Shown here: in pieces, positions 5,376-34,633 of the stretch
Numbering within the stretch: position 1 is the stretch's first letter
Layout: each line of letters opens with the position of its first letter
NCBI GenBank assembly: GCA_003134555.1
Contig: PLBO01000149.1
Span: forward strand, 1-50,163
DNA length: 50,163 nt
From: Actinomycetota bacterium
GTDB taxonomy: Bacteria; Actinomycetota; Acidimicrobiia; IMCC26256; PALSA-610
Reading direction: 5' to 3'
Program-made: the position numbers and the translations under genes
The notes under the pieces: generated by a model
The model's input: the letters and a program-made list of their open reading frames with translations, nothing else
What the model was told of the DNA's origin: nothing
The model's database searches: none

Positions 5376-5399
5376 AAACTCGCGGTGTCGCGCCGCGGC

Positions 5400-16352: not shown

Positions 16353-17342
16353 ATGAGTCGGATCGGACTGGTGCTCGGAGCAGGCGGGGCCGTCGGTCAC
16401 GCGTTCCACGCGGGCGTGTTGGCCGGCCTCGCCGAAGTGACGGGCTGGGACGGGCGCGACGCGGAAGTGATCGTCGGCACCTCGGCGGGGTCCGTGGTGG
16501 GCGCGCTGCTGCGCGCCGGCCTCTCGGGCCCCGATCTCGCGGCCCACTCGACCGAGGTCGCGATGTCGGAGGAGGGCCGGCGCATCACGGCCCGCGGCGA
16601 CGCGGCCCGAAACGACCAGCCACCGATCCCCACCCGTCCGCAACGACGGGCATTCCGCGGCGCTTCGGCGCCGAGTGCCCTGGTGCGCGCCGCGCTGCAA
16701 CCGTGGAATGCGCGCCCCGGCGCGCTCGCGGCCGCGGCATTGCCCGAAGGCCGCGTGCCCACCGAGCTCGTCGCGTCGGGTTTACGCCCGCTGTTCACCA
16801 AGTGGCCGGACCGGCCGTTGTGGATCGTCGCGGTCGACCTCGAACGCGGCCGGCGAGTGACGTTCGGCCGTGAGGGCGCGCCGACGTCGACCGATGTCGC
16901 TTCCGCAGTCGCGGCATCGTGCGCGATCCCGGCGTTCTTCGCCCCCGTCTCGATCGGCGGCGTCCGCTACGTCGACGGAGGCGTGCACTCGCCGACCAAC
17001 GCCGACCTCGTCTCGGGCCTGAACCTCGACCTCGTCGTGATCAGCTCACCGATGTCGGTCGCGCGCACGAACCCGCGCTTCGCACCCGATCAGCCCGCAC
17101 GCCGCCTGGCGCGGTTCCGATTGGTGCGCGAGGTCGCGCGCATCCGTCGTACCGGCATCCCGGCACTCACCTTCCAACCCACCGACGCCGACCTCGCGGT
17201 CATGGGCTTGAACGCGATGGACCCGGACCGCCGTGCCGACGTCACGCGCCGGGCACTCGAGTCGACCCGGCTGCGGCTCGCGCGCCCCGACGCGAGCGAG
17301 CGGGTGTCGATCCTCGCCTCTGCGCCTACTCCGCGATCTTGA
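16353..17342 (+). CDS. Patatin-like phospholipase
   Basis: 329 residues from the ATG at 16353 (gaggga SD). The N terminus GLVLGAGGAVGHAFHAGVL carries the glycine-rich oxyanion loop. GTSAG (42-46) gives nucleophile S44, and YVDGGVHSPTNAD gives the catalytic Asp (D208, DGG motif). These complete the Ser-Asp dyad of patatin/RssA-type lipid acyl hydrolases. It probably cleaves acyl esters at a membrane or at lipid inclusions. It diverges from the HbhA-like/XRE operon. Its 3' end overlaps the convergent WS/DGAT gene by 17 nt, so the two may be reciprocally expressed lipid-storage functions (inference). Confidence 0.9.
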   Translation: MSRIGLVLGAGGAVGHAFHAGVLAGLAEVTGWDGRDAEVIVGTSAGSVVGALLRAGLSGPDLAAHSTEVAMSEEGRRITARGDAARNDQPPIPTRPQRRAFRGASAPSALVRAALQPWNARPGALAAAALPEGRVPTELVASGLRPLFTKWPDRPLWIVAVDLERGRRVTFGREGAPTSTDVASAVAASCAIPAFFAPVSIGGVRYVDGGVHSPTNADLVSGLNLDLVVISSPMSVARTNPRFAPDQPARRLARFRLVREVARIRRTGIPALTFQPTDADLAVMGLNAMDPDRRADVTRRALESTRLRLARPDASERVSILASAPTPRS

Positions 17343-18702
17343 GCAGCTCGGTCATGCCGGCCTCGACGCCGGCGCACAACACCGCGATGTCGGGCGCAGT
17401 GTCGTAGTCGCCGGTTACGCCGTAGTTGAGCAAACCGTTGTACGAGAAGATCGCGACGCCCACGCGTACGTTGCTCGCGAGGGGGACGAAGGGGAACGCC
17501 TCGACCATCGGCCGGCCGCAGGCGAACAAGCGCCACTGCGGGCCCGGGACGTTCGTGGTCACGGTGTTCACGTTCCGCTGGGGTATCCGCATCGCAACCC
17601 GCGTGCCGAGCGCGAGCAGCATCGACGGTGCGAACCCCGAGAGTGACGTGAGCGCTTCGGCGGCGACGGCCTGCTTCGACTCCTTGAGCGCGTCCATCTG
17701 CGTACGAATGGCAGTGAGGCGCTCGACGGGCGAGGCCATACCGACGGGCAGCTCGGCGATCATGGCCGAAACGCGGTTGTTGTACGTGCCGCGTTCGCCG
17801 GGGGTGCGCACCGACACCGGTACGAGCGTGCGCACGACCCGGTTCTCGACGTCCTCGCCCCGCGCCAAGAGCAGATCGCGAAACCCGCGCGTGAGCACGG
17901 TGAGCACGACGTCGTTCACCGTGCCCCCGAGGGCGCGCCGTACGGTCTTCACGTCGGCCAGCGTGGTGCGCGCCCAGTCCCAGCGGCGGTGCGGACCAAT
18001 GGGGCCGTTGATCGACGACACCGGAGTCCGCCGCACGACTCCGGCCCACGCGCGCAGCCCGCGCGCCACCTCGGTGAGCTGAGTGACCACCTGGCGCGGC
18101 GCACGCGTGACCGAGCGCGCGGCGCGGAGTTGCTCGTAGGGACTCGCGACGAGGGCACCGAGGGCATCGACGACGAGGCGCACGTCGGTCGGCTCGGACT
18201 CGGCGTGCCAGTCGTCGGCCAACGGCTGCGCCGGCTCGGGCTCCGAATCGAGCACGACGGTGAGCAGGTCGGTCCCGGACACGCCGTCGACCATGCAGTG
18301 GTGCACCTTCGACACGAGCGCCCAGTGGCCGTGGTCGAGACCGTCGACCATCCACATCTCCCACAGGGGCTTGTTGCGGTCGAGTTGCTGCGACATCACC
18401 CGCCCGACGAGATTGCGCAGCTCCTGGTCGCCGCGGGGAGCCGCCAATGCGGTGTGACGAAGGTGATACCCGAGGTTGAAATGCGGATCGTCGACCCACA
18501 ACGGCCGGCCGAGCTGAAGCGGAACGAATCGCACCTTCTGGCGATACCGAGGGACCGCGGGCAGCTTGCCTGCGACCATCGCCTCGAATTCCTCGTACGC
18601 GGGCACCGGACCCTCGAAGATCGCCACCGATCCGATGTGCATGTGGCTCACGGCGTTCTCGACGTGCAGGAACGACGCGTCGAGCGGGCTCATCCGATCC
18701 AT
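17326..18702 (-). CDS. WS/DGAT-family O-acyltransferase
   Basis: 458 residues, typical family length. MSPLDASFLHVENAVSHMHI at the N terminus and HHCMVDG at 134-140 (HHxxxDG catalytic motif) identify a wax ester synthase/diacylglycerol acyltransferase, which moves a fatty acyl group from CoA to a fatty alcohol or diacylglycerol. The C-terminal DUF1298-type half includes NNRVSAMIAELPVG and NVNTVTTNVPGPQWRLFACG. The start ATG overlaps the cyclase stop (TGATG) with GGAG 5 nt upstream, so it is translationally coupled to a nucleotide cyclase, an unusual partner. The product would be storage lipid or an envelope lipid. Confidence 0.92.
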   Translation of the reverse strand: MDRMSPLDASFLHVENAVSHMHIGSVAIFEGPVPAYEEFEAMVAGKLPAVPRYRQKVRFVPLQLGRPLWVDDPHFNLGYHLRHTALAAPRGDQELRNLVGRVMSQQLDRNKPLWEMWMVDGLDHGHWALVSKVHHCMVDGVSGTDLLTVVLDSEPEPAQPLADDWHAESEPTDVRLVVDALGALVASPYEQLRAARSVTRAPRQVVTQLTEVARGLRAWAGVVRRTPVSSINGPIGPHRRWDWARTTLADVKTVRRALGGTVNDVVLTVLTRGFRDLLLARGEDVENRVVRTLVPVSVRTPGERGTYNNRVSAMIAELPVGMASPVERLTAIRTQMDALKESKQAVAAEALTSLSGFAPSMLLALGTRVAMRIPQRNVNTVTTNVPGPQWRLFACGRPMVEAFPFVPLASNVRVGVAIFSYNGLLNYGVTGDYDTAPDIAVLCAGVEAGMTELLKIAE

Positions 18703-21700
18703 CACAGCTCCAATCCACGGTCGACGACGCCGAGCGTTCGGAAGACACCGAGAGCTTCGGCTCGCAGCGCGGGTGAGGCGACGCCGCGCGCGTCGTCGAT
18801 GTCGGCTCGGGCGAGCAGCGCCTCCGCGATCTCCCCCGGTGCCCGTGCCGCGCGAGCGAGACCCAGCGCGTGCTCGATCGCGGCGCGCGCGCCCTCGACG
18901 TCGCCCAGCGCGAGCAAGCACCTTGCACGGACGCGGTGCAGCGCGCTACGGAGGTTTGGATCCTGGTCGGCGTCGCCGATCTCGGCCAGCACCGATTCGA
19001 TGACGGTCAGCGCATCCCCAGGTTGGTCGCGCGCCAGGAAACACTCGGCGCGCCGCACCTGCGCGTCGAGCACGAAACTCGGCGCAGTGATCGCACGGAA
19101 CATCACCAGCGACTCGTCGAGGAGTGGGAGCGCGGCTTCGATGTTTCCGGCGCGAGCTTCGGTTCGGCCGAGATACAACGTCGTCGCCGCGATGAGGATC
19201 TCGAATTGGGCCGCGATCGACGAACGCCGGGCCTCGAGCAGGACCTTGCGCGCCTCGTCGAGCCGGCCCTGATCGCACAGCACCTCGCCGAGATTGCACA
19301 TCGCGAGCGCGGCGCTGCCGACATCACCGGCCTGCTCGGCGACCTCCCGCGATCTCTCGTTGAGCCTCGCGGCATCGTCCCACTGGCCGGCTTGGTGAGC
19401 CGCGAGCGCCAGATTGCTCAGCACGCTCGTCTGGCCGACGAGATCGCCGAGCTCTTCGTAGATCGTCAAGGCCGCGCCCGGTACGTCGGACGACTCGGCC
19501 GCCGGATACGAGATCAGCGCGAGGTCGATGAGGTCGAGCGCGTGCGCCAGACCGCGTCGATCATCGATGCGGCGAGCGTCGTCGGCCGCCCGCCGAGCCC
19601 ACTCGACCGCCTGGGCATAGAGCCCCTGCCGATAACGGACGGCGCTGAAGACGATCGCGATCTCGACCAGGTTCTGGTCCTGGGCGCCGGTGTCGTTGCT
19701 GCGCTGCGCGGCGCGCAAAGCCCGTCCCAGCCATCGGAGCGCCTCGGTATAGCGGCTCCTCCGTTCGCGCAGCCGTCCGTGCTTGCGCAGCAGCCGAACC
19801 ACCGTGATCGGATCCGTCGTGTGCCGGCGCGCCCGCGAGTAGGCGACGTCGGCGTCGACGTAGCGGCTGAGGAGCTCCAGGGTGTCACCGAGCGCTTCTG
19901 CGACACGCGCGATCTCGTTGTCGTCGACCACCGTGGCATTGCCGTTGCGCAGTGCGCGCTGAAAGAACTCGGCGGCTTCGACGTTCGCGTACTTGGCCGT
20001 CGCGTCCTCGCCGGCAAGCACGGAGTAGCGCCACGCTCGTTCACCGTCGCCGCTGACGTCGAAGTGCAGCGAGAGCAGGCCGGCGACGGCACGCGGATCG
20101 GTCGCGCGCCGCTCGATGACGAGACCGACCGCCTCGTGCACCTGCATTCGCCGGCGGTACGAGAGCCCTTCGTACGCCACGGCACGGAACAGCGCGTGGC
20201 GGAAGCGCAGTGAGTCGTCGTCGTCGGGCACGAGGAAGGGATCGAGTGGATCCCAGCGGACTATTGCTCGCACGCTCTCGTCGTCGGTCGCCTCCGCGAG
20301 GACGATCGTGTCGACCCGGGCACCGAGCACCGAGGCGTCGCGCAGCAGAAGACGGTCGCGCGGCGCCAAGGTGTCGATGCGCGACGTGAGCAGTTGCTCG
20401 ATCGAGTCCGGCAGCGAGTCGGTAGAGCCCTTCGCCGTAGCGGCCGCGACGAGCTCGATGACGAACAAAGGATTTCCGCCGGCGCGATCGGCGAGTCGTT
20501 GGATGTCGTGCAGGGCGAGACCGCGGCTCTCGTCGGCCAGCGCGATCGCGAGCTCGCCGGCCGCCTCGGCCGCGAGTGGTTCGAGCGCGAGCTGCAGCGC
20601 GCCGGCCGCGGGAGGCATCACCGGCGGCCCCGGCCGGCGCGTGCACACGACCAGCCAGCGGCTGCGCCGTTCGGTGCCCACGAGCTCCGCGAGCAGCGAA
20701 TGTGACGCGTCGTCGAGCCAGTGCGCGTCCTCCACGAGCAGGAAGCCCGTCGGCGGCATCACGGAGCCGAGCAGATCCAGCAGCGCCCGTTCCAACTGCG
20801 CGCGCCTGAACTCCGGCGCGATGCGGTCGGCTTCCGGCGTCGGGGGAACCGTCGCGTCGAACGGGATCGCGAGCAGCGGCAACCACTGCGTCAGGTGGGG
20901 TGCGACCTCTTGCGCCCACGCGGAGAGGCGTACACCCGCTTCGATCGAGTCGGCGTCGGCAGGAATACCGCTCAGCGTCCGCAGCACTGATCGGACCGCG
21001 AGATACGGCGTCGCCCGTAGGTATTGGCCGCACGTGATCGTCAACGAGGCCGGCGGTTGTGCGCGGCGCCGGAACTCGTCGACGAGGCGACTCTTTCCCA
21101 TGCCCGGCTCGCCGACGATCTCGATGACGTAACCCTCGCCGCGCGCCGCCGCGTGGAGCCCTTCCTCGAGTGCTGCGAGCTCGGCCGTCCGGCCCACGAA
21201 CGGCGCACCTTCGATCTCGTCGACCGCGCGGGTCGCACGGACGAGCGCACCGAGCTTCGAGGCCTCGATGGGTTGCGACTTGCCCTTGACGAAGAACGGC
21301 TCGAGCGGCTCGGTCTCGAACCGGCTCACCGCGCGTTCGAGCACATAGCGACTTGCGACGATCTGGCCTGCTTCCGGCTTTTGCATGAGCCGCGCCGCGA
21401 GGTTCACGGCATCGCCCATGACCGTGAACGTCCGCCGCGTGTCCGAACCGAGGTCGCCGACGTAGACGGGGCCGCGATTCACGCCGACACGAACCTCGAG
21501 GGGCGGCTTCCGATCGATGAAGGCGCGCAACGAGTGCAGCATGTCGTCCTCGTCGCGCCCCGACGACGACGGTGCGCCGGCCGTGAGAATGAACTTGCCG
21601 CCGTCGGGATAGACGTCGGTGGCCAATTGGTGCACGCCGTGCAATGCAATGGCTTCGGTGAGGAGCGCGGCGGTCTCGCCCAGCCGGGCCGCGAGCTCTT

Positions 21701-22502
21701 CGGGTCCATTTCGTTCGATGATCGCGTCGGTGTGCGAGAACTTCACGAAGGCGATGGTCGCGCGGCGGTGCTCGCCCCTGACTCCCGCCGAGATCTGCTC
21801 CTGATGCGCCCGCGGTACGAATTCCCGGAGATCGAGGTCGGTGATCGGCTCGGTGAGATCGATCGGCTCGGTGAGATCGAGCACGCGCCGCCGCAAGATG
21901 TGCCCTTCGGGGCGCTGGTCGCCGAGCCACGCGCGGTCGACCGAGCGCGCCGCGGCATGGCTCAGCAGGATCTCACCGGCATTGGCGGCGGCCTCGCACT
22001 CGACGGTCGCGGTCGCGCCCGGCCCGGTGACGATCAGCTCGCGATGGTCGCCGTCGACGAGGAACAGCGTGAACTCGCCGGAGTGGATGCCCTGCGACAT
22101 CCGGAGCTTCACCCGGCCGGCGCGCGCGCTCACGAGCGGCTCGGCGATCCCAGTGCGCATGCCGACCGCCGCCGCGCACGCGCGGGCGGCGTTGTCGGTG
22201 CCGGTGAAGAGGATCAGGAGCGCGTCACCGCCGAACTTCAGAACGTCGCCACCGAACGCGGTCGCGGTCGCGATCATGTCTTCGAAACAAAGGTTGAGCA
22301 GATCGGTCAGTTCCTCGGCACCCGCGCGACCGATCGCCGCGAGGCGTTCCGACAGGGCGGTGAATCCCGAGATGTCGGCGGAGAGCAGCGAACCCTCGAC
22401 GACCCGGACGCGCTCGGAAGCGTGGTTCCGGGCCCAATCGGCGACCAGGCGCGGGACGTACGGCGCAAGTGACGTTGCAAGCGCTTCGCCGGGCGAGCTC
22501 AT
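18702..22502 (-). CDS. Soluble-adenylyl-cyclase-like protein: two cyclase domains, AAA-type ATPase, TPR-like C terminus
   Basis: 1266 residues, cytoplasmic. Residues ~35-200 form a class III cyclase homology domain with both metal-site aspartates (D43 in SADISGFTALSER, D93 in LKFGGDALLILF). A second domain (~245-415) keeps RVGVNRGPVYVGDLGSDTRR and MGDAVNLAARL but has FVKFSHTD where the first metal Asp would be. This suggests one catalytic and one regulatory/ATP-binding half, as in mammalian soluble adenylyl cyclase. A P-loop follows (GEPGMGKS, about 462-469) with Walker B-like LLVEDAHWLDD near 585, then a helical TPR-like region from about 800 to the end. The start lies 4 nt after the giant surface protein's stop. 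It likely makes cAMP or cGMP in response to an unknown cue. Confidence 0.9.
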   Translation of the reverse strand: MSSPGEALATSLAPYVPRLVADWARNHASERVRVVEGSLLSADISGFTALSERLAAIGRAGAEELTDLLNLCFEDMIATATAFGGDVLKFGGDALLILFTGTDNAARACAAAVGMRTGIAEPLVSARAGRVKLRMSQGIHSGEFTLFLVDGDHRELIVTGPGATATVECEAAANAGEILLSHAAARSVDRAWLGDQRPEGHILRRRVLDLTEPIDLTEPITDLDLREFVPRAHQEQISAGVRGEHRRATIAFVKFSHTDAIIERNGPEELAARLGETAALLTEAIALHGVHQLATDVYPDGGKFILTAGAPSSSGRDEDDMLHSLRAFIDRKPPLEVRVGVNRGPVYVGDLGSDTRRTFTVMGDAVNLAARLMQKPEAGQIVASRYVLERAVSRFETEPLEPFFVKGKSQPIEASKLGALVRATRAVDEIEGAPFVGRTAELAALEEGLHAAARGEGYVIEIVGEPGMGKSRLVDEFRRRAQPPASLTITCGQYLRATPYLAVRSVLRTLSGIPADADSIEAGVRLSAWAQEVAPHLTQWLPLLAIPFDATVPPTPEADRIAPEFRRAQLERALLDLLGSVMPPTGFLLVEDAHWLDDASHSLLAELVGTERRSRWLVVCTRRPGPPVMPPAAGALQLALEPLAAEAAGELAIALADESRGLALHDIQRLADRAGGNPLFVIELVAAATAKGSTDSLPDSIEQLLTSRIDTLAPRDRLLLRDASVLGARVDTIVLAEATDDESVRAIVRWDPLDPFLVPDDDDSLRFRHALFRAVAYEGLSYRRRMQVHEAVGLVIERRATDPRAVAGLLSLHFDVSGDGERAWRYSVLAGEDATAKYANVEAAEFFQRALRNGNATVVDDNEIARVAEALGDTLELLSRYVDADVAYSRARRHTTDPITVVRLLRKHGRLRERRSRYTEALRWLGRALRAAQRSNDTGAQDQNLVEIAIVFSAVRYRQGLYAQAVEWARRAADDARRIDDRRGLAHALDLIDLALISYPAAESSDVPGAALTIYEELGDLVGQTSVLSNLALAAHQAGQWDDAARLNERSREVAEQAGDVGSAALAMCNLGEVLCDQGRLDEARKVLLEARRSSIAAQFEILIAATTLYLGRTEARAGNIEAALPLLDESLVMFRAITAPSFVLDAQVRRAECFLARDQPGDALTVIESVLAEIGDADQDPNLRSALHRVRARCLLALGDVEGARAAIEHALGLARAARAPGEIAEALLARADIDDARGVASPALRAEALGVFRTLGVVDRGLEL
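21843..21878 (-). repeat. Perfect 18-nt tandem duplication in the cyclase gene
   Basis: Two adjacent identical 18-nt copies (21843-21860 and 21861-21878) encode DLTEPI DLTEPI in the linker between the two cyclase domains. The duplication is in frame. It could vary in copy number and change linker length. Confidence 0.85.
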
Positions 22503-22506
22503 GGGG

Positions 22507-25500
22507 CTATTTCAGCAGGAAATAGGCGCGGTAGAGCTTGTTGAGGTACGCGGCGTCGGTAGCGCTGCCCACAGGCGTGGCGGGATCGCTCGTGACTCGG
22601 AAGTTGAGCCAGTTCTTGTTCGGCGTCTTCAGGAACCGGCTGTCGGTCTTCAGGTTGTATTGATAGACCTTCGACGAGGCCGTGAAGCTGAAGTTGTTCC
22701 CCGTGCTACCGGCCTGGTTCGGCGACAACAGCGCACCGTTGTTGTCGGCGGCGACAGCAGTCAAGGTGATCGACGCCGACGAGAGGATGGTTCCCGCCGC
22801 GTTGCAGAGCTGGATCTTCATCGGGAACGCGGAGCCGATGTTCGACGGCTTCGTCGGGTCGTACTGCAGGCACAGGTTGTAGACCACGCGGTACTGGTAG
22901 GTCTTGCTCGACGTGTTGCCGGCAACGTCGGTGCTCTGCACGGAGAAGCTGTGCATTCCCAACGTGTTCGTGTCGAGCTGCGCGAGCGACGCCTTCGCCG
23001 TCGGGCCGTCGGAGCCGCTGCAGCCGCCCAGCCCGGTCACGAGACCCGACATCGGGTCGCTGCACGAATAGGTAACCCGCACCGGAGACTGGTTCAGCAG
23101 GTAGACGGGGATCGGAGCACCGGTCGCGGGATCGTTTGCCTGCGGCCCCACCGGCGCGGTGGTGTTCGTTCCCGGGATCGCGAGGTTGATCACCGGCGGG
23201 GTCTTGTCGAGCTTCACGACGCGCGTCTTGGCGACGGGTTCGACATTGCCCGCGACGTCGGTCGAATGGAACGTGAACGTCGTGATGCCCTCGGTGGAGA
23301 GCGTGTACGTCGCCGCGGTTCCGCTGACGTCCGTCGTGCTGACGATCGCGCCGCCCTTCACCGCGTCTTTGGCCGCGGAGTACGTCACGGTCGCAACGCC
23401 CGAGCCGGTCGTTCCGTCGGCCAACAACGGGTCGGTGCCGGTGAACGTCACCGCAGTGTTCGCCCTCTCCCATCCGGCTGCGTTCTCGGCCGGGACGACC
23501 GATGCCGCGGTCGACGGTGGCGTCAGGTCGACGTTGACGTTCACCGTGGTCTGCCCGGAGGAGTTGCCGGCATCGTCGAACGCCGTGGCCGAGATGACGT
23601 TGTGCCCCTCGCTCAGGAGACTCGAGTCGACGACGGCCTGGAGCGACGAGGCACCTGGTGTGATGTCAGTCGCGACCTGCACCGGCGTTCCCAGCGCGGG
23701 TGGTGTCGCCGGCGACTGGCCGTTGACCGTGTACACGATCCGGGTCGCGCCGGAGCTCGGGGCCGCATCGCTTGCCGTAATCGTCACCGCCGGCACGGAC
23801 TTGTGCCAGTGGGCCGGATTCGCGATCGGGCTCGCGGCGAAGCCCAGCGTGGGCGCATGAGAGTCGACTCCGACGGCGAAGTCGGTCGCCGGGAGCGCGG
23901 TGTTGCCGGCGCGGTCGGTCGCGCTCACGTTGAAGGTGGTGACCCCGTCGTTGGTGATGTTCTCGGAGACAGGGGGGCTGCCGACCGCCGGCTGCGGGAC
24001 CGTCTTCGATGCGATCGTCGTCGCACCGCGCGCCGAATAGGTGATCGTCGCGACGCCCGAACCGAACTGACCGGGGTCGTTGGGGACGATGCTCGTCTTG
24101 TGCGGCGAGTCGTTGTACCAGCCGCCGTCGCTCGGCGCGGCGGAAGTGGGCGCGCCGATCAGCGGCGAGGGCGCGCGCTTGTCGATCAGCACCTCGGCGC
24201 GTGATTGTTGCTGACCCGACTGGAACGCGACGATCGTGTGCACGCCCTCATTGAGATCGGTGAACGTCGGGAGGGTCACCGGTCCGATCAGCGGCGCGGT
24301 GATCGTCTTGCCGCCGTCGATGCTGTAGGAGATCTTGCGCAGTTGAGTCACTGCCGGCGGCGTGATCTTCACCGACACGTTCGACGTGAACCAGCCGTTG
24401 TTCCCCTGTGCACCGGTGAACGTGAAACGGAGCGGCCCGGTCGGCGCGAGGTTCTCGGCGTTGAAGTAGGCGCCCTTGCTGGCCGACACGCCGACGTTGC
24501 CCGCGGAATCGGCAGCCTGCACGTAGTAGTCGACGAGGCTGTTGGGTGCGGGCAACGACGCAAACTGGCCGACCCATGTACCCGGAGCGTCGGTAAGAGA
24601 CAACGACGGGTGGAGCTCGATCGGGAACCACGTGCCCGCGCCCGCGCCCGATTGGCTGACGAGCGCGAACACGCGCTTGACGTTGCCTACCGGATCGGTC
24701 GCGCCCGTGTCCTGCACCTGCGCGGTGATCGTGACGGTGTTGTTGAACACCTGCGTGCCCGACGTGAGGATGGTCGGCGGCACGCTGTCGGAGCCTTCCG
24801 GCCCGTAGTACACGTGCGCGCGGAAGTGCGTGAACAAGCGCTCGGTGCCACGCCCGGGCTCGGCCAGGCCCGGAGTCGGACGGAACTGCGCGGGGACCAC
24901 GTTGACGTGCTGCGTCAATCCGTTGTCGTGACCGTATGTCGTCAGTGATTGCAGTCCGGCCGGGAACGACGCGTCGCCGACGGGTTGGGCGTGCTCGTTC
25001 TGCGACTGATCTGTCGCGGGTCGGGAGTAGTCGGGCAAGAAGCCGACGGTGTCCTGCGAATGCAGCTCCGTGATGATGGTGCCCTTCGCCACCTCGCCCG
25101 CGAGATTGGTCGGATCGGTCGCCGCCGGCGAGACGTCGAACTCGTAACGGGGCTGAATGGGTCGCTGCGATGCGACGAGCGTCTGGCCGTTGACCTCGTA
25201 GTGGCCGGCAGGCGACGGCGCACCGGGATTCGTCACGAAGTGCAACGGGTCGACGCCGGCGCTGCCGACCCCGTTCGGGTCGAAGTCGCGGCTGAAGTCG
25301 CTCGAGCGCAGACCGGCGATCTGACCGTCGACCGCCGAACCCGACGTGCTCGGCAGGACCACCGGTCCGGAGCTGGGCGCCCCGAGCGACCACTGCGGCA
25401 GACCGTAGAACGTCGATTCCTCCATCACCTTTTCGTCGTAGGGGCTGACGACCGCGAGGGCCGCGCGGTACCGCTGCTTCGCGACCCTTAGCGCCTCGCC

Positions 25501-28500
25501 AATAGTGCTCGAGCGATCGAGCTGGTCGGCGAGCAGGGCCATGAGCTTCTCCGACAGCGCAACCGTGTCGGTGTCGCCGTAACCGAAACCCGTGTTCGCG
25601 ATCCAGAGCGCGCCTTGCTGCGCCATGAACTGCGACCAGTCACCGGTATCACCAACGCGTCCCAAGACGGTCGCCATCGCGTCGGGCAGGTTGAGCCCGG
25701 CGTGACAACCCATGCTGAACAGCAGCGCGCCCTGGAGCGTTGTGCCGCCGTTGCGCGTGCCAGCGGCCTGGGCATCGGCGAGGCTGAACAGCGCCGACGC
25801 GTTCTTGTTCGTGTTGCCGATCGCGGGGAGAATGTTCTGCTCGTCGAAGTGCGCGTTCACCGAGGCGATATTCGGAATCGGCTTCGAGGGGTCGGACGAC
25901 GCGCCGGCGCTCGGTGCACCGAGCAACTTGCTTGCGAGGTCGTCGCGTGTCCACGTGTCGTTGATCAGCGAGGTGTCGGGATTGTGCTGGCCCGCCGCGA
26001 GGGCGTCGGCGACCGCGTGCGCGCCGTCGCTGAGGAAGTCGTAACCCGTGACGAGGCTCTTCGCCGACGCGGGGAGCACGCCGTTCGCGGCCGCGAAGTC
26101 GGAGAACGCCTTGGCGATCTCGTCCGGACGGTCGACGAGGCGACCGACCTGCAGGTCGGGCACGAACAGATCGCGACCCGCGACCGCGAGCGGGTGCTGC
26201 TGCGCGTAGACGTCGTCGGTCAGCAGGAAGCCACCCGAGAACACCGACGCGAGCGCGTTGGCGGCATTGCTGAAGTCGGGCGCGCGCCCGCGCTCGTTCG
26301 CGATCCGCGTCGCGTCGCGCAGGCGCGCCATCGGGATCTGGTCGTCGCCGCCGACGACGGTCACGAACTTGATGTTCGGGTTCTGGGCGAGGAGCGCGTC
26401 GAGTTGCGCGCCGATGGCCGTCACGACGCCGTTCGCGCCCGCGACCCCGCACGGATCCGCGTCCCACGCCGTGTACGCGTCGCGCGTCGCCTGGTTGTCC
26501 TCCACCGAAACGAGCTGGGCCTTGCCGTAGGCGTTCATGAACGCCGTCAGCGCCTTCCACACCGGCTGGACCGCCGCGGCGCCCCACGTCTGCGCGAGGC
26601 GGTTGGGATCCATGAGCACCACGGTGTCGACCGCGGCAGACGGCGCGGGCGGGGTGAAGGCGGGTGCCTGATCGGTCGGGAACTGGAACGTGTGCGTGCC
26701 CGGACACGTTGCCGCGGCGTCGTTCGTGATGCGGGCCCGCAAGCTGTACGGCAGGTCGCTCGACGCGCCGTTATAGCCGGCAACCTGGACGAGGTATTGC
26801 CCGGCGGGCAACGTGCCGGTGTCGATCTCTTCGTCCTTCAGCCCGCGGTTCGCGGAGACGTCGTAGACCCGGCGGCCCGCAACGAGCGGCAGGTCCTGCA
26901 GCGTCTCGGTCGGGAGCGAGTCCTGCGCCGGAGTGAGCGAAGGCGCGGGGTCGCTCACCGGGATGACGCTGCCGCTCGGCGAGAGGCGAAGGTGGACGGC
27001 CGCCCCGGAAGCGTCGTAGAGGATGAGGTCGTAGTCGGCGGGAAGGTTGCCGAGCAACAGCGAGACGCGCTGGCCTCCGGCGATCGTCAGCTGGAAGAAG
27101 TTCGACGTCTGTCCGGCGCTGACGTGCCCGAGGTACAGCGTGTCGGGCGACATCGTGGTCGGGTTATTCGAATCGGTCGACGCCGCCGACGGCGCGGTGT
27201 TGGTCACCGCAACGTCGGAGCTCACGGTCGGGTTCGCGGTGCCCACGCTTCGCAGGTGAGCTTCAGCCGACACGGTTTCGGTCCCGAGCGCGGTACCCGG
27301 CTCCAACTGGAACGTCAGCGACGACGTGCCGACGGGCACCTGGAGCAACGTCCACTTGAGCTGCTGCCCGCCGCTCGAGCTCGACACCGCCGGATCGGCG
27401 ACAGGCGTGCCGCCGAGCGACGACGACCCCGGCACGTACGCGAAGTCGGCGGGAATCGTCGCGTTCGCCTCGATGTCCTGCGGGCCGTCACCGTTCACGA
27501 CGAGCGTCCCGGTGAAGGTGATCAGGGTTTGCGGCGACGCGTACGTCTGCAGGTTCACGCTGCCGATGTCGAGCTGCTCCCACGGGAGGTCCTGCTGGCC
27601 GAGCAACGCGAGCAGCAGGTCGTCGAGGGTGATGCCGGTGGCGCTGGCAATCGCCGACAGAAGTTCGCCGAGGTTGGTTCCGTTGAGGATGTCAGGCGGC
27701 AGCGCGCCGAAGAGCTCCTCGAGCGTGGTGCGGTCCTGGTCGGCGACGGACAGCCCGCTGAGGAGGACGCCCAGCTCGACGTCGGCACCGCCGAAGACCG
27801 GGATACCCACGGCGTGCGCAACGGCGGTCGAACCGTTGAGTCCGCGGGTGACCGTCCACGTCTGGGTGCCGTCGCCGTGGTCGACCGCGGCGGTGACGTT
27901 CATCAGTTCGGAGCCGCCGAACACGGTGAACGCGCCGGCCGGCGGCGCGGTTGTGCCGTGGATTTCGAGCGTCGTGCTCGCGTCGTCGATTGCCGTGCCG
28001 ACGGTCCAGTCGGTTCCGACGACCTGGTCGGCCTGGGCGAAGAAGTCGGCGAGCGTCATCTGGTAAGGCGGCGTGTCGAGAGTGCTCGAGTTGAACGCGT
28101 TGATCTGCCCGATGTAATCGGCGAAGGTGACCGTGTCACCCTCGGTCGTTCCGGGAAGCAGCGCGCCGATGATCGGTCCGGAGCGCAGGCCCGCGAACGC
28201 GACCGCGCTCGCGCTGTTGGCGACGAGCGCGTTGGAAAGATCGAACAGCGTCGCGTTCGGCTGCAGGAGCGCGTTCCCGACCGAGCCGAGTGTGGCGTTG
28301 GCAGTCGTGCAGTCGAACACGGTGCACTGCACGATCGAGCCCGCGTTGGTGCCGAGGTCGGACAACGGGATGTCGGCCAGGCCCGCGGCCGCAAGATCGA
28401 GGTCGGCGAGAAGGAACTTTCCGATGCCTATGGGCCCGCTGGTGTCGCCGAGCACCATCAATCCCAGAGGTACTGCTCCCGGTCCGCTGGTGCCGACGGC

Positions 28501-29727
28501 AGTATGCCCGACACCCGTGTGACCGACACCGGTGTGCCCGACGCCGGTGTGCCCGACGCCCGCGGCATTCAAGTCGGTGTGGCCGACGCCCGTGTGCCCG
28601 ACACCCAGGTTGGCGATGTCGGTGTGACCGACACCCGTGTGACCGACACCCGTGTGACCGACACCCGTGTGACCGACACCCGTGTGACCGACACCGGTGT
28701 GTCCGACGCCGATGTCGGCGAGCGTGACGTCGGGACTGAACCCTGGGATATTCGCCGTGCCGACACTCGCGACGCCGAGCGGCGAGGTGCCGAGCACGTT
28801 CCTCGGAGTGTTGACGTCACCCGTGACGGTGATCGCGGCGAGCGGCAGCACGCTGAAGTCGACGCCCGCGAATGCGAGCGTGAGGAGCGTGATGTCGTCG
28901 ACGGTCGCGACGTTCGCGCTGGTGATCGTCGTAGGGTCGACGCCCAGGTCGGCGAGGCAGTCGACGCCCGTCGTCAGGTTCGAGAGCGTGTCGCACCAGT
29001 TCTGGAACGTGTGCGCGGGGTCGAAGTTGCCGTCGAGCGAGAGTTGCGAGATCGGAATGCCCGAGAGCGCGACGGCCGCGAGCGGAAGGTTCGTGAGCGA
29101 AGTCTTCGAGAGGTCGAGGTCGGACAGCTGCAGCGAGTTGAAACGCGCGAGCGCAGTGCTGTCGAGGATGACGTCCTTCATCGTGATCGTCTGCCGGGGC
29201 AGCGCCGCGAGGGCTGTACCGGCGAGGACGCCTTCCCATCCGGTGCACGGCGTCGTGCTCGCGGGATCGTCGCACCCGTGCGGATACCAGATCGGGAGAT
29301 CGGTGATGAGGATGTTCTGCATCGCCGCGCCGACGACGTCGGTGTGCCCGACCCCGGTGTGCCCGACGCCGAGTTGACCGAGGGCGAGACGCGCGATGCC
29401 GGTGTGCCCGACACCGGTGTGCCCGACTCCCGTGTGCCCGACACCGGTGTGCCCGACACCGGTGTGCCCGACTCCCGTGTGCCCGACCCCGATCGACTCG
29501 ACCGGGCTCGGGTTGTTCGAGGCGTTCGTGGCGAACGCCTGACTCGGGATCGCGTTGACCGGAAGGCTGAACGCGCCGGCCGGTGTCGTGCCCGGGTTGG
29601 AGGAGAGCGATGTGAGGGTCGCCGCCGGTGTGATCGCGTACGCCCGGGTCGCGCCGGTGACGACGCCGCCGAGCGCGACGAAGGACGCGATAAAGCTCGC
29701 AACAGCGCGCCGCCGCATCCGCACCAT
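22507..29727 (-). CDS. Giant secreted protein with GVGHT pentapeptide repeats, C25-like peptidase domain and Ig-like domains
   Basis: 2406 residues with a Sec signal peptide (MVRMRRRAVASFIASFVALG, cleaved near AYA). Residues 80-129 and 340-409 are arrays of GVGHT units in phase with pentapeptide-like units (GIARL, ALGQL, DLNAA, DIANL). Leu-rich solenoid-like sequence lies between and after them. About 866-1020 resembles a PPC domain (YDLILYDASG). About 1030-1445 resembles a peptidase C25/gingipain-type caspase fold: H1293 in NAHFDEQN and C1341 in FSMGCHAGLNLPD. About 1580-2280 holds several Ig/OmpL47-like repeats (GWY.D..., SGVATITYSA, DRAGNT). The C terminus (about 2285-2406) resembles PxKF-type domains. 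No sortase motif or TM anchor is seen. It is the first gene of a run with the cyclase and the WS/DGAT. Probable surface or secreted protease/adhesin; function unproven. Confidence 0.82.
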   Translation of the reverse strand: MVRMRRRAVASFIASFVALGGVVTGATRAYAITPAATLTSLSSNPGTTPAGAFSLPVNAIPSQAFATNASNNPSPVESIGVGHTGVGHTGVGHTGVGHTGVGHTGVGHTGIARLALGQLGVGHTGVGHTDVVGAAMQNILITDLPIWYPHGCDDPASTTPCTGWEGVLAGTALAALPRQTITMKDVILDSTALARFNSLQLSDLDLSKTSLTNLPLAAVALSGIPISQLSLDGNFDPAHTFQNWCDTLSNLTTGVDCLADLGVDPTTITSANVATVDDITLLTLAFAGVDFSVLPLAAITVTGDVNTPRNVLGTSPLGVASVGTANIPGFSPDVTLADIGVGHTGVGHTGVGHTGVGHTGVGHTGVGHTDIANLGVGHTGVGHTDLNAAGVGHTGVGHTGVGHTGVGHTAVGTSGPGAVPLGLMVLGDTSGPIGIGKFLLADLDLAAAGLADIPLSDLGTNAGSIVQCTVFDCTTANATLGSVGNALLQPNATLFDLSNALVANSASAVAFAGLRSGPIIGALLPGTTEGDTVTFADYIGQINAFNSSTLDTPPYQMTLADFFAQADQVVGTDWTVGTAIDDASTTLEIHGTTAPPAGAFTVFGGSELMNVTAAVDHGDGTQTWTVTRGLNGSTAVAHAVGIPVFGGADVELGVLLSGLSVADQDRTTLEELFGALPPDILNGTNLGELLSAIASATGITLDDLLLALLGQQDLPWEQLDIGSVNLQTYASPQTLITFTGTLVVNGDGPQDIEANATIPADFAYVPGSSSLGGTPVADPAVSSSSGGQQLKWTLLQVPVGTSSLTFQLEPGTALGTETVSAEAHLRSVGTANPTVSSDVAVTNTAPSAASTDSNNPTTMSPDTLYLGHVSAGQTSNFFQLTIAGGQRVSLLLGNLPADYDLILYDASGAAVHLRLSPSGSVIPVSDPAPSLTPAQDSLPTETLQDLPLVAGRRVYDVSANRGLKDEEIDTGTLPAGQYLVQVAGYNGASSDLPYSLRARITNDAAATCPGTHTFQFPTDQAPAFTPPAPSAAVDTVVLMDPNRLAQTWGAAAVQPVWKALTAFMNAYGKAQLVSVEDNQATRDAYTAWDADPCGVAGANGVVTAIGAQLDALLAQNPNIKFVTVVGGDDQIPMARLRDATRIANERGRAPDFSNAANALASVFSGGFLLTDDVYAQQHPLAVAGRDLFVPDLQVGRLVDRPDEIAKAFSDFAAANGVLPASAKSLVTGYDFLSDGAHAVADALAAGQHNPDTSLINDTWTRDDLASKLLGAPSAGASSDPSKPIPNIASVNAHFDEQNILPAIGNTNKNASALFSLADAQAAGTRNGGTTLQGALLFSMGCHAGLNLPDAMATVLGRVGDTGDWSQFMAQQGALWIANTGFGYGDTDTVALSEKLMALLADQLDRSSTIGEALRVAKQRYRAALAVVSPYDEKVMEESTFYGLPQWSLGAPSSGPVVLPSTSGSAVDGQIAGLRSSDFSRDFDPNGVGSAGVDPLHFVTNPGAPSPAGHYEVNGQTLVASQRPIQPRYEFDVSPAATDPTNLAGEVAKGTIITELHSQDTVGFLPDYSRPATDQSQNEHAQPVGDASFPAGLQSLTTYGHDNGLTQHVNVVPAQFRPTPGLAEPGRGTERLFTHFRAHVYYGPEGSDSVPPTILTSGTQVFNNTVTITAQVQDTGATDPVGNVKRVFALVSQSGAGAGTWFPIELHPSLSLTDAPGTWVGQFASLPAPNSLVDYYVQAADSAGNVGVSASKGAYFNAENLAPTGPLRFTFTGAQGNNGWFTSNVSVKITPPAVTQLRKISYSIDGGKTITAPLIGPVTLPTFTDLNEGVHTIVAFQSGQQQSRAEVLIDKRAPSPLIGAPTSAAPSDGGWYNDSPHKTSIVPNDPGQFGSGVATITYSARGATTIASKTVPQPAVGSPPVSENITNDGVTTFNVSATDRAGNTALPATDFAVGVDSHAPTLGFAASPIANPAHWHKSVPAVTITASDAAPSSGATRIVYTVNGQSPATPPALGTPVQVATDITPGASSLQAVVDSSLLSEGHNVISATAFDDAGNSSGQTTVNVNVDLTPPSTAASVVPAENAAGWERANTAVTFTGTDPLLADGTTGSGVATVTYSAAKDAVKGGAIVSTTDVSGTAATYTLSTEGITTFTFHSTDVAGNVEPVAKTRVVKLDKTPPVINLAIPGTNTTAPVGPQANDPATGAPIPVYLLNQSPVRVTYSCSDPMSGLVTGLGGCSGSDGPTAKASLAQLDTNTLGMHSFSVQSTDVAGNTSSKTYQYRVVYNLCLQYDPTKPSNIGSAFPMKIQLCNAAGTILSSASITLTAVAADNNGALLSPNQAGSTGNNFSFTASSKVYQYNLKTDSRFLKTPNKNWLNFRVTSDPATPVGSATDAAYLNKLYRAYFLLK
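28501..28710 (-). repeat. GVGHT array B: 14 pentads (12 GVGHT)
   Basis: Fourteen 15-nt units without a gap in phase. From the protein's N-terminal side: six GVGHT, DIANL, two GVGHT, DLNAA, four GVGHT. Several adjacent units are identical at DNA level (cgtgtgaccgacacc on the plus strand), a sign of recent tandem expansion. The two variants match the A(D/N)LxX look of pentapeptide repeats. Confidence 0.92.
29341..29490 (-). repeat. GVGHT array A: 10 pentads (8 GVGHT)
   Basis: Six GVGHT, then GIARL-ALGQL, then two GVGHT, all in a strict 15-nt period. Unit DNA differs from array B (GGG rather than GGT for the second Gly in most units), so the two arrays have been homogenised separately. Confidence 0.92.
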
Positions 29728-29885
29728 GCCCCAGCCCCTCTCGCAGCGCCCCTGCGCCCGCTGCTCGCGTGAAAAGCTACAGGGATTCGACGGGCCCGGA
29801 CAATGCGCGCAAGGAATCCCGGACCGGTTTCCCGTTCACAAATCGGACACATCGCCGGAACTCGCCGCCGTCGGCTCACCCCACG
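29728..29885. other. Intergenic region between the MFS-CNB gene and the giant protein gene
   Basis: 158 nt; both genes read on the minus strand. A gagagggg SD precedes the giant protein's ATG. A promoter may lie here, but I see no clear -35/-10 pair. Confidence 0.35.
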
Positions 29886-31583
29886 TCAGGCCGGGCCGAT
29901 CTCGACGCCGAGTCGCCCGAGCAGGCCGCCGCCCAGGGTTCCGCCCGCGGCGGCCGCAACGGCATTGACGGTCGCGACGAAGCGGTCACCACTGATCCGC
30001 AGGACGACACTCCTCTCGCGCGCGACGACGCCGGCCGTACGCGGCACCTGTTGCAGCAGGCCGACCTCGCCGAAGCCTGCTCCGGGCGCAAGAGTCGCGA
30101 TCACGTCCTCGCGACCATCCGTGCGGCGTAGCACTTCGAGCGCGCCCGATACGAGCACGAAGAAATCGTCGGGATCCGCGCCTTCTTCGATCACGCGAGC
30201 GCCGGGCTCGACCGTCTCCGCGCGCGCTTCGACCGCGAGGGCTTCGAGCGTCGGTGCGAGCGCGTTGTGCAGCCACGGCAGTCTGCGAAGTAATGCGACA
30301 CGTTCAGCAACGGATTCGTCGAGCCGCCGGCTCGCGCTGCGTGCAAAACGCACCGAGATGAAGAGCGCTCCGGCGGGGATCACGCCACCGAGGGTCGCGA
30401 GCGCGACTCGTACGCCGAACGCGTGAATGAGCGGGGGCGCGATCACGGAGCCCAGAAAGAGCGCCGCGAAGATCAGCGAGTCGAGCAGTCCGAACACGTG
30501 CGCGACGCGTTCGCGTGAGACGACGCGTTGCACGAGCGTCACCGCGAGCACCTCCGTCGCGACGCATCCGGCGCCCGCGGGAACCATGAGCGCCGCCGCG
30601 ACGACTGTGGACGACACGCCACCGAGCAGGGCGAACGGCACACCGGCGAGCAATGTCACGGCGCCCAGGACGAAGAGTTGGCTTTGCGAACGGGCCAGCC
30701 GGTTGGTCATCATCGCGCCGAGGAGCGCGCCGACGCCCAGACCGGCGTTCAGGAGCCCGAAATCGGCGCCCCCGCTCAGGACGTCCTCCGCGTAGAGCAC
30801 GAGCGCGACCAAGGCGCCGGCATAGGTCAGATTCACGACCACCACGAGCACGACCGGCGCCGCCAACTCCGGCACCGTTTTCATGGCTCGGGCCCCGGCC
30901 AACAGCTCGCTCTTCAACGAATCCGCAACGGCTCGGGGCGCGGGGACCGCGTCGAGGAGCGCCGCGAGCCCAATCGCGACGACGAAGATCCCGGCGTTGA
31001 CCAGCAGCGCCGCGACCGGAGACCCGCTCAGCAGCGCGAGCCCGCCCAGCGCGGGCCCCGCGATGAACGACAGGGTCTCCAGACCCGTGAGGAGCCCGTT
31101 GCCGGGAGCGAGATCCTCGGCGGTCAAGGTCGCAGGAACCGCGGCAGCCATCGCGGGATAGCACGGCGTTCCGAACGCCGCGAAGAAGAACGCAAGCGCG
31201 ACCAAGGCGAGCGGAGGAAAGTGCGCGGCAACGGCCAGTGCGAGAGCCGCCACCAATGCCGCGCGCGCCGCGGCCGACCACATGAGCAAGCGCCGCCGCG
31301 GAACGCGGGCCGCAATGACGCCCGCGAGCCCCGGAACGAGGATGTACGGCAACACACGGGCCGCGGCAATCGCGGCGACCCAACCGGCGGAGCCCGTGCG
31401 CGAAAAGATCGCGACCGCCATTGCAACGGTCCCGAACGTCTGGCCGATGGCCATGACGAAGTACGTGGCGATGAGGTGGCGGAACTCGACGTGCCTCAGC
31501 GCGTCGCGGTAGGTGCCCGGTCGAACCCCCCACCGGAACCGAACCCGTCTCGATCTCTTCGCAACTACAGCGTCAGGGCTCAT
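29886..31583 (-). CDS. MFS transporter fused to a C-terminal cyclic-nucleotide-binding domain (2)
   Basis: About 565 residues from the ATG at 31583. GTG 31631 is an alternative and neither has a good SD. The MFS core starts at YRDALRHVEFRHLIATYFVM with many Ala/Leu-rich helices and the loop GVIAARVPRRRLLMW. The CNB domain occupies the last ~150 residues, with the cassette FGEVGLLQQVPRTAGV (Glu and Arg kept). The architecture matches the protein at 13078-14733, but sequence identity is modest, so they are older paralogues. It lies upstream of the giant protein and cyclase on the same strand, so cyclase product could gate this transporter. Cargo unknown. Confidence 0.85.
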   Translation of the reverse strand: MSPDAVVAKRSRRVRFRWGVRPGTYRDALRHVEFRHLIATYFVMAIGQTFGTVAMAVAIFSRTGSAGWVAAIAAARVLPYILVPGLAGVIAARVPRRRLLMWSAAARAALVAALALAVAAHFPPLALVALAFFFAAFGTPCYPAMAAAVPATLTAEDLAPGNGLLTGLETLSFIAGPALGGLALLSGSPVAALLVNAGIFVVAIGLAALLDAVPAPRAVADSLKSELLAGARAMKTVPELAAPVVLVVVVNLTYAGALVALVLYAEDVLSGGADFGLLNAGLGVGALLGAMMTNRLARSQSQLFVLGAVTLLAGVPFALLGGVSSTVVAAALMVPAGAGCVATEVLAVTLVQRVVSRERVAHVFGLLDSLIFAALFLGSVIAPPLIHAFGVRVALATLGGVIPAGALFISVRFARSASRRLDESVAERVALLRRLPWLHNALAPTLEALAVEARAETVEPGARVIEEGADPDDFFVLVSGALEVLRRTDGREDVIATLAPGAGFGEVGLLQQVPRTAGVVARERSVVLRISGDRFVATVNAVAAAAGGTLGGGLLGRLGVEIGPA

Positions 31584-32100: not shown

Positions 32101-33117
32101 TCACGATGCCGCGACGGTCTCCTCTGGTTCGAGGAGGTTCCTCTGATCGAGGTAGTAGAGCAAGCCCAGCGACGGCACGATGACGATCACCGCGATCACG
32201 AACACGACGAAGATCGAGGTGAGTGTCGGATCGGGCGCGGCGGCCTGCGACACCTTCAACGACGTCGGGAGCATGTAGGGCCACTGGGCGACACCCCAGC
32301 CGAGCACCACCGTGGCGACTCCACCCGCCGCGAACAACCGGGCGGCGCGACCCGCGCGCCGAACGAGGAGTATCAGCGAGCCGATCCCGCCGAGCGCGGC
32401 AAGGACCACGAGTGCAAGTGCGCGTGACGTGAGTCCGTCGAACAGGTAACGGGCGTCGGCGCGCAGGACGAAGATTCCCGCGAACGCCACGACGCCGGCT
32501 GCGACCGCGGCCGCCACCGCGCGCCGGCGGAAGTATTCGACCATTTCGGCGTCATCACTTCGCCGCGCGTCCCATACGAGGTACACCGCCGCGAGGTACG
32601 CGCACGTGGTGACGGCCAGGACACCGCCGAGTACGGAGGTCGGGTTGATCCAACTCGACCACAAGGGCCCGGCGTTGCCTCCGGCGGGTACGCGACCGGA
32701 GGCGATTGCGCCGGCGATGGCGCCCATGCAGTACGGAACGAGAATCGAAGAGGTCGCGAAAGCCGCGCCGAAGTTCCTCCGGCTTGACGTGCGCGTCACC
32801 TGCTCGCGGAAGGCGAAGCTCGAACCTCGAAGGACGATGCCCAGCGCGGTAATCGACAGCGGGACGAACAACGTCAGCCCGACGGACGCGAACACTTCGG
32901 GGAAGCTGGTCCAGAGCACGACCAGCGAGAAGATCAGCCAGATGTGGTTCGCTTCCCATACGGGCGCGATGGCGTGCTGGATGATCGCGCGCGGCCGCCT
33001 GCCGCGCGTGGCGCCTCCCGCGACGAGATCCCAGAAACCGGCGCCGAAATCGGCACCGCCGAAGAGCGCGTAGGCGGTGATGCCCAACATCAGCGTCACC
33101 GCGACCACGCGACTCAC
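32101..33117 (-). CDS. cydB: Cytochrome bd ubiquinol oxidase subunit II
   Basis: 338 residues with about eight membrane helices. GGADFGAGFWDLVAGG near the N terminus and the segments HAIAPVWEANHIWLIFSLVV and VLWTSFPEVFASVGLTLFVP are hallmarks of CydB. It starts at GTG 33117 inside a GTGA overlap with cydA, so the two subunits are made in step. With CydA it forms the membrane oxidase that reduces O2 to water with quinol electrons, with high O2 affinity. The cydDC export genes needed for assembly in many bacteria are not in this window. Confidence 0.95.
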   Translation of the reverse strand: MSRVVAVTLMLGITAYALFGGADFGAGFWDLVAGGATRGRRPRAIIQHAIAPVWEANHIWLIFSLVVLWTSFPEVFASVGLTLFVPLSITALGIVLRGSSFAFREQVTRTSSRRNFGAAFATSSILVPYCMGAIAGAIASGRVPAGGNAGPLWSSWINPTSVLGGVLAVTTCAYLAAVYLVWDARRSDDAEMVEYFRRRAVAAAVAAGVVAFAGIFVLRADARYLFDGLTSRALALVVLAALGGIGSLILLVRRAGRAARLFAAGGVATVVLGWGVAQWPYMLPTSLKVSQAAAPDPTLTSIFVVFVIAVIVIVPSLGLLYYLDQRNLLEPEETVAAS

Positions 33118-34523: not shown

Positions 34524-34633
34524 ACCGTGCAAGTGCCCCCTTACATCTGGACGGGTTCGCCCGCTTGTGTCATTGAGGCCGCGATTGCGCCCAATCGTAT
34601 TGCCCGGCTTCGAGGAAACGCCGGACGCAGGCA

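Follow-up and report, generated by a model that had tools for sequence, protein, structure and literature searches.

The window analysed here, 50,163 nucleotides long, is an entire contig (PLBO01000149.1; G000:C115) of the 4.63-Mb draft genome of an Actinomycetota bacterium (GCA_003134555.1). It carries side by side the genes of a giant exported protein and of a large cyclase that resembles soluble adenylyl cyclase (sAC). Sequence comparisons showed that the two genes stay neighbours in every orientation, that the type of surface partner follows the cyclase phylogeny, and that proteins with a cyclic-nucleotide-binding (CNB) domain cluster around the cyclase. The conserved pair suggests that the bacterial surface and signalling inside the cell are connected in a way not yet described. 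Each component comes from a known family; a literature search of open-licence PMC papers found no published description of a surface-protein/cyclase pairing.

A sequence-only reading of the window had placed a major facilitator superfamily (MFS)-CNB fusion, the giant, a two-domain class III cyclase and a WS/DGAT acyltransferase one after another on one strand, with the last three almost touching. All of this was borne out. The four genes are consecutive on the minus strand (Table 1), with 158 nt between the MFS-CNB gene and the giant, 4 nt between the giant stop and the cyclase ATG, and a TGATG overlap of the cyclase stop with the WS/DGAT start. The expectation that relatives would keep the gene order stood for one part of the run. 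A cyclase-AAA-TPR gene of the same type adjoined the giant at 29 of the 30 loci whose flanks were long enough to judge (28 of 29 when the window is not counted), but the four-gene arrangement was not conserved, the WS/DGAT gene accompanying the pair in the window only. Genes in the flanks of the giant loci were called by a simple GC-position caller and checked by tblastn.

The loci came from a wide range of genomes. No other full giant was seen in the genus (four genomes, including that of the window), and strong matches outside the window were limited to G021 within the order (58 genomes). Because the giant is nearly absent from genus and order, there were no close relatives in which to compare the four-gene order. 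A profile of the giant core matched 24 of 395 genomes of the class. In a phylum sample of 396 genomes, 22 matched, mostly over short partial stretches, and eight, that of the window included, did so at E < 1e-30. A Thermoleophilia metagenome-assembled genome (L026) was added by a contig scan for the giant.

Every relative orientation was represented. The genes were codirectional with the giant first in the window, G021:C124, G176:C1 and G694, and codirectional with the cyclase first in G179, G355:C34, G202, G244, G284, G706 (giant core and N-terminal part called as two genes) and G254:C36 (counted through an end overlap with contig C6). They were divergent in G256, G227, G126, G242, G342, G118, G254:C134, G272, G432:C173, L026 and G336, the last a remnant in which a TPR piece lies next to a shortened giant. 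They were convergent in G367, G313, G096, G400, G565, G204:C16 and G176:C1b, where one open reading frame (ORF) of 150 aa lies between the two. A cyclase stands on both sides of the giant in G227. At G021:C124 the contig ends after the first part of the cyclase, and contig G021:C26 starts within a cyclase and shares 12 bases with it, a join that is suggestive and unproven. Eight places where the contig ends (G021:C267, G378:C335, G378:C262, G316, G355:C131, G204:C189, G432:C83 and G638) were left out. Since adjacency held whatever the orientation, the pairing is not just that of an operon. A simple operon was rejected because orientation varies among loci, and a single transcript as a general rule was ruled out by the many divergent or convergent pairs.

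The cyclase of the window contains two PF00211 (Guanylate_cyc) stretches, an AAA_16 ATPase domain (E 9e-20) and TPR_12 repeats in Pfam searches; it is thus larger than the two-domain enzyme first described. Human soluble adenylyl cyclase, ADCY10, matched its N-terminal part over C1 (whole-sequence E 6e-17) and more weakly over C2. The metal residues Asp30 and Asp80 of C1, as well as Arg358 of C2, were kept in 25 of 25 cyclase rows, and Asn354 of C2 in 24 (the exception being L026). The tandem domains, the C1 metal Asp pair and the C2 Asn/Arg identify a two-domain sAC-like class III cyclase, and, these residues being conserved, nearly all members are predicted to form a single composite active site from C1 and C2. 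A hydrophobic stretch of the membrane-helix kind was found in just 1 of 64 cyclases, so they look cytosolic. ADCY10 (human sAC; 4oya, 4clf) shares with the window cyclase the single-chain C1-C2 tandem, the sequence match and one composite active site, whereas the window protein is bacterial and adjoins an exported-protein gene.

The ATPase and TPR parts of human sAC also come after C1-C2. The C1 arginine that we take to be the bicarbonate-site residue of sAC aligned with Val in the window cyclase, and bicarbonate control is therefore not expected. The base-pocket lysine of sAC (K334), which bears on whether the product is cAMP, aligned with Ala at a position where the alignment is uncertain. 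Rv0386, Rv1358 and Rv2488c are actinobacterial cyclase-AAA-TPR(-LuxR) proteins. Such proteins likewise join a class III cyclase to an ATPase-TPR half and belong to the same phylum; in contrast, the Pfam scan of the window cyclase showed two cyclase domains and no LuxR domain. The accessible part of the survey PMC2447327 contained no mention of TPR or of "two cyclase domains".

The giant begins with a signal-peptide-like stretch and has a core that resembles peptidases of family C25. PF01364 (Peptidase_C25) was matched by 14 of 25 family cores at E up to 1 (best 2.1e-9; aa 379-719 in L029), and PPC by 7 of 25 in Pfam. One His and one Cys were invariant in all 25 core rows of the within-family alignment. 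The resemblance to family C25 (gingipain/PorU type) consists of these matches, with the His and Cys as candidate catalytic residues. The giants differ in their very large size and tandem five-residue repeats, the window row falls below Pfam detection, and peptidase activity is putative. Identity of the other cores to the window row was 26 to 38%. Among 33 called genes that carry the core and reach 1000 aa or more, 26 had at least three exact tandem copies of a five-residue unit; the other seven include fragments and one weak partial match (G614). The unit varies by locus (PLGAI, PVSSI, PLNAF, SPSAF, PIRST, PVGST, GVGHT and others). The copies are near-identical inside one protein and the unit changes between loci, as if repeatedly homogenised. 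A PDB profile search with the giant core returned nothing credible (best E 0.24), and neither NCBIfam nor PADLOC gave a name for the giant as a whole.

The pairing was also approached from the cyclase side. A profile of the catalytic halves (25 rows) matched 69 of 395 class genomes at E up to 1e-60, and 40 further cyclase loci were hand-picked from this list, together with one locus of the window's own genome; they are not a random sample. Exported proteins were called by a home-made hydropathy rule whose background shifts with leniency (58 of 520 genes versus 59 of 287 genes of at least 150 aa). A giant core or an exported neighbour was found at 37 of 44 cyclases with both neighbours called (background 59/287, expected 0.37 per cyclase, p 1.6e-10), 17 of the 44 having been fetched because of their giant neighbour. 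Among the 27 cyclases without a called giant neighbour, 20 had an exported one (background 59/287, p 9.5e-5). Seven of the 44 gave no hit: G176:C1b, with the giant behind one small ORF; L165, L167 and L179, with partner pieces at contig ends; L182, where a short called gene carries the C-terminal domain described below; and L180 and L196, where no partner was seen. The phylum loci and L026 were left out of this test. G595 and G614 (weak partial core hits) were left out of the gene statistics, and the cyclases G093:C66|16 and G400:C229|0, which are of another type, were dropped before counting.

Many of the exported neighbours belong to a second type of partner, adhesin-like stalk proteins (DUF11, Big_1, Big_9/cadherin, SdrD_B, FN3) that share a C-terminal domain ending ..DPxFxR, with two subfamilies, A4 and A5. 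These pairs were convergent in 19 of the 20 listed, with gaps of -53 to 141 nt, and the pair of this type in G227 is convergent too; L168, L178, L191 and L199 are among the 20 by their exported look or their end and have no A4 or A5 row. A second pair, of this type, occurs elsewhere in the genome of the window, on contig C37 (L106), with the cyclase at 71408-75226 and a 526-aa partner at 69802-71382. At L164, L168, L170, L177, L186, L188, L191, L199 and G227:C83 the convergent cyclase and partner genes overlap at their 3' ends by 4 to 53 nt, and their messages could therefore pair. When run against 365 genomes, the A4 and A5 profiles found 9 and 16 places. The domain is rare outside pairs, yet not bound to them. 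L226 carries two exported partner-type proteins in tandem (1999-5665), one of each subfamily, with no cyclase in the 14 kb of sequence covered there.

Partner types were then scored as changes on a tree of 64 cyclases, built by a quick method, and compared with 500 shuffles. Giant-type partners required 6 changes versus 20.1 in the shuffled sets, and C-terminal-domain type A required 2 versus 5.8; none of the 500 shuffles was as low in either case. C-terminal-domain type B, with 8 changes versus 9.4, was not significant (50 of 500). The cyclase of the window groups with those of G694, G176:C1 and G179, all of which are paired with giants. Distances between giant cores correlated with those between cyclases (r 0.69, n = 24, 0 of 5000 permutations), a figure that includes shared species history.

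The sequence-only reading had also supposed that the cyclase signals to CNB-fused transporters and to lipid synthesis. The first part is upheld as a genomic pattern, with CNB proteins near 14 of 65 such cyclase loci. Within three genes of a pair or cyclase, CNB proteins made up 17 of 293 near genes versus 1 of 413 far genes (p 2.7e-6), and the sole far one is in the window itself. They include MFS-CNB, ABC ATPase-CNB, ABC transporter-CNB, SulP/STAS-CNB and NTE-patatin-CNB fusions, a CNB domain with a histidine-kinase-type ATPase domain, and CNB domains alone. The ABC ATPase-CNB gene of G179 adjoins a MacB/FtsX permease, and in the MFS-CNB protein of the window both MFS and cNMP_binding scored above the Pfam cut-offs. 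The second part, the lipid arm, was not supported, since the WS/DGAT gene adjoins the pair in the window only. MBL-fold hydrolases, considered as dedicated phosphodiesterases, were too weakly enriched to claim (7 of 293 versus 2 of 413, p 0.03). Their genes lie within three genes of the pair in G227:C83, G254:C134, G244:C25, G342:C213, G565:C137, L166 and L170, and they are possible cyclic-nucleotide hydrolases.

We tentatively read the functional unit as a two-gene module, an exported surface protein with a cytosolic sAC-like sensor cyclase, in which surface state would be turned into a cyclic nucleotide and passed to CNB outputs; we regard this as nearly an even call. That the pair signals surface state is our inference. 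The AAA/TPR half may act as a switch of the STAND type that monitors the state of the cognate surface protein, with the unexported precursor or a fragment released by a C25-type protease as candidate inputs. The C1/C2 half would convert that state into a cyclic-nucleotide pulse, probably of cAMP. The predicted outputs are the CNB domains fused to exporters, permeases or phospholipases, in the window the MFS-CNB protein. Through their homogenised five-residue repeats the surface proteins would differ from one another, and this could be why each keeps its own cyclase.

Several observations weigh against this reading. An enzyme in the cytosol can meet an exported protein only through some step that it leaves unexplained. 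The Walker A pattern was present in 50 of 64 cyclases and missing in 14, and a Walker-B-like pattern was present in 37 and missing in 27, some rows being truncated in both counts. No CNB gene lay within three genes at 51 of the 65 loci. One giant, in G093, is the sole exception to the linkage, its nearest cyclase being of another type and more than 5 kb off, and the cyclase of L180 stands without a partner. A same-type cyclase adjoined 18 of the 25 places with the ..DPxFxR domain, a count that is mostly circular because 17 of the 18 are profile seeds. Of the other eight places, G002:C125 is adjacent, G117:C167 lies by synteny next to a gene that the contig end truncates, three have no adjacent cyclase (the tandem pair of L226 and one in L227) and three could not be judged. 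The distance correlation fell to 0.40 (n = 18, 10 of 5000) once the divergent clade and two further rows were removed, with species relatedness still in it. The window's own core row had no Pfam match, C25 included, even at E 1. The AlphaFold models of the C25-like region (window and L026 rows only; mean pLDDT 36.8) and of the giant's N-terminal repeat region (mean pLDDT 37.1) failed.

The strongest rival to surface-state signalling is the reverse direction, in which the cyclase responds to an intracellular cue in the form of a metabolite or peptide bound at the TPR half, and the cyclic nucleotide controls the timing of synthesis, export or processing of the neighbouring surface protein, which would then be an output and not the input. 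The AAA/TPR half resembles MalT-like small-ligand sensors (Pfam TPR_MalT), CNB domains on exporters (MFS, MacB-type ABC) fit control of export, and the surface partners, adhesin-like or protease-like, look like effectors. However, neither of the two is a transcription factor and the majority of pairs do not form a single operon; strict adjacency would therefore not be required for this arrangement, and a partner type that tracks the cyclase clade suits specific recognition somewhat better. We consider the reverse direction somewhat unlikely.

A defence or conflict module, in which a STAND cyclase would detect an invader or a kin-recognition signal and the exported protease or adhesin and the CNB proteins would be the effectors, is improbable. 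Its STAND-type architecture, patchy distribution and locus-specific repeats fit such a role, and PADLOC gave weak matches to Pycsar cyclases and CNB effectors. As in Pycsar, a cyclase gene lies near a CNB protein; the differences are the architecture of the cyclase, the kind of CNB fusions and the exported partner. Pycsar is defined by a PycC-type cyclase with a PycTIR or PycTM effector, and here the weak PADLOC matches were to the cyclase fold and the CNB domain, with no TIR or PycTM partner seen. According to PMC7159879, caspase-like peptidases and cNMP cyclases recur in conflict systems, namely VMAP systems and a membrane two-gene system 4, which are NTPase-regulated. In the systems covered there the domains are interchangeable parts of cytosolic or membrane components, whereas here the peptidase-like part is on an exported partner. 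The CNB domains sit on transporters and a phospholipase, not on TIR or nuclease effectors, and the giant had no PADLOC match.

A single regulated unit that takes in the cyclase, the surface protein, the transporter and the synthesis of storage lipid is quite improbable. The gene spacing speaks for it, and the TGATG overlap may couple translation of the cyclase and the WS/DGAT in the window. The latter assignment is firm (NCBIfam TIGR02946 at 440.8 bits versus a cut-off of 309.95), and the translation contains HHCMVDG. The motif of WS/DGAT enzymes is HHxxxDG. A patatin gene lies tail to tail with it, the 3' ends overlapping by 17 nt, and CNB-fused patatin-like phospholipases recur near other pairs and such cyclases. 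In G021:C26 (L236, 3395-6824), genes for an alpha-glycerophosphate-oxidase-like protein, an FAD-linked oxidase and an FGGY kinase start 10 nt after a related cyclase. Nevertheless, tblastn found no WS/DGAT match in the flanks of other giant loci, and the window's genome has 10 WS_DGAT matches, besides 14 CNB and 30 Guanylate_cyc matches. A conserved four-gene cassette was rejected on this ground, and the WS/DGAT gene is most likely a local addition and not a conserved part of the pair. Finally, linkage without function, by chance or hitch-hiking, would suit the patchy distribution and the many cyclase genes per genome, but is very improbable given 29 of 30 testable loci in the class and beyond, in all orientations and with sequences as diverged as the cores are.

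Under the reading of the pair as a surface-state module, it is possible, if on the doubtful side, that these bacteria have an undescribed actinobacterial signalling system. In it, every sensor cyclase of the sAC type would serve a single surface protein encoded next to it and report the state of that protein to CNB-gated transporters and phospholipases, a path from receptor to cyclic nucleotide without a transmembrane cyclase. The partner in such dedicated pairs would be either a giant that resembles C25 proteases and has its own homogenised five-residue repeats, or an adhesin-like protein whose conserved C-terminal domain ends ..DPxFxR, a proposal that we also make with some hesitation. Genomes like this one carry dozens of class III cyclase genes, the stimuli of which are, to our knowledge, mostly unknown. 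A cyclase clade that adjoins surface proteins offers a concrete stimulus or target for each cyclase, with candidate readers, the CNB fusions, only a few genes off. Such a clade is also relevant to how bacterial relatives of human sAC are regulated, and it places C25-like surface proteins with striking locus-specific five-residue repeats in a context.

Table 1. Genes and regions of the four-gene run and its convergent neighbour (window coordinates).
Feature	Position	Strand	Remarks
MFS transporter with C-terminal CNB domain	29886..31583	(-)	Pfam; in-frame ATG at 31583; open frame from 31631
Giant exported protein, 2406 aa	22507..29727	(-)	five-residue repeats, PPC-like and C25-like core, OmpL47/Big-type repeats, PxKF-like end
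First tandem GVGHT repeat block of the giant (aa 80-130)	29338..29490	(-)	
Second tandem GVGHT repeat block of the giant (aa 340-410)	28498..28710	(-)	
C25-peptidase-like region of the giant	25375..26706	(-)	invariant His and Cys are aa 1293 and 1341
sAC-like cyclase, 1266 aa	18702..22502	(-)	C1-C2 catalytic pair, AAA_16 ATPase, TPR repeats
WS/DGAT acyltransferase, 458 aa	17326..18702	(-)	TIGR02946; TGATG overlap with cyclase stop
Patatin-like phospholipase	16368..17342	(+)	Pfam domain start to stop; convergent with WS/DGAT

Scans of the window with Rfam and for tRNA genes gave no match. A further surface protein is encoded on the contig at 390-5375 (+). Counted from the called start it is 1661 aa long; it is large, looks exported and contains Laminin_G_3 domains as well as six Flg_new_2 repeats of the InlB type. 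A second MFS-CNB protein (13078-14733, +) adjoins a short-chain dehydrogenase and a TauD-type dioxygenase. Genes for cytochrome bd oxidase subunits (32101-34532, -) lie upstream of the MFS-CNB gene of Table 1 and share its strand, with the gene of an MscS-type channel beyond them.

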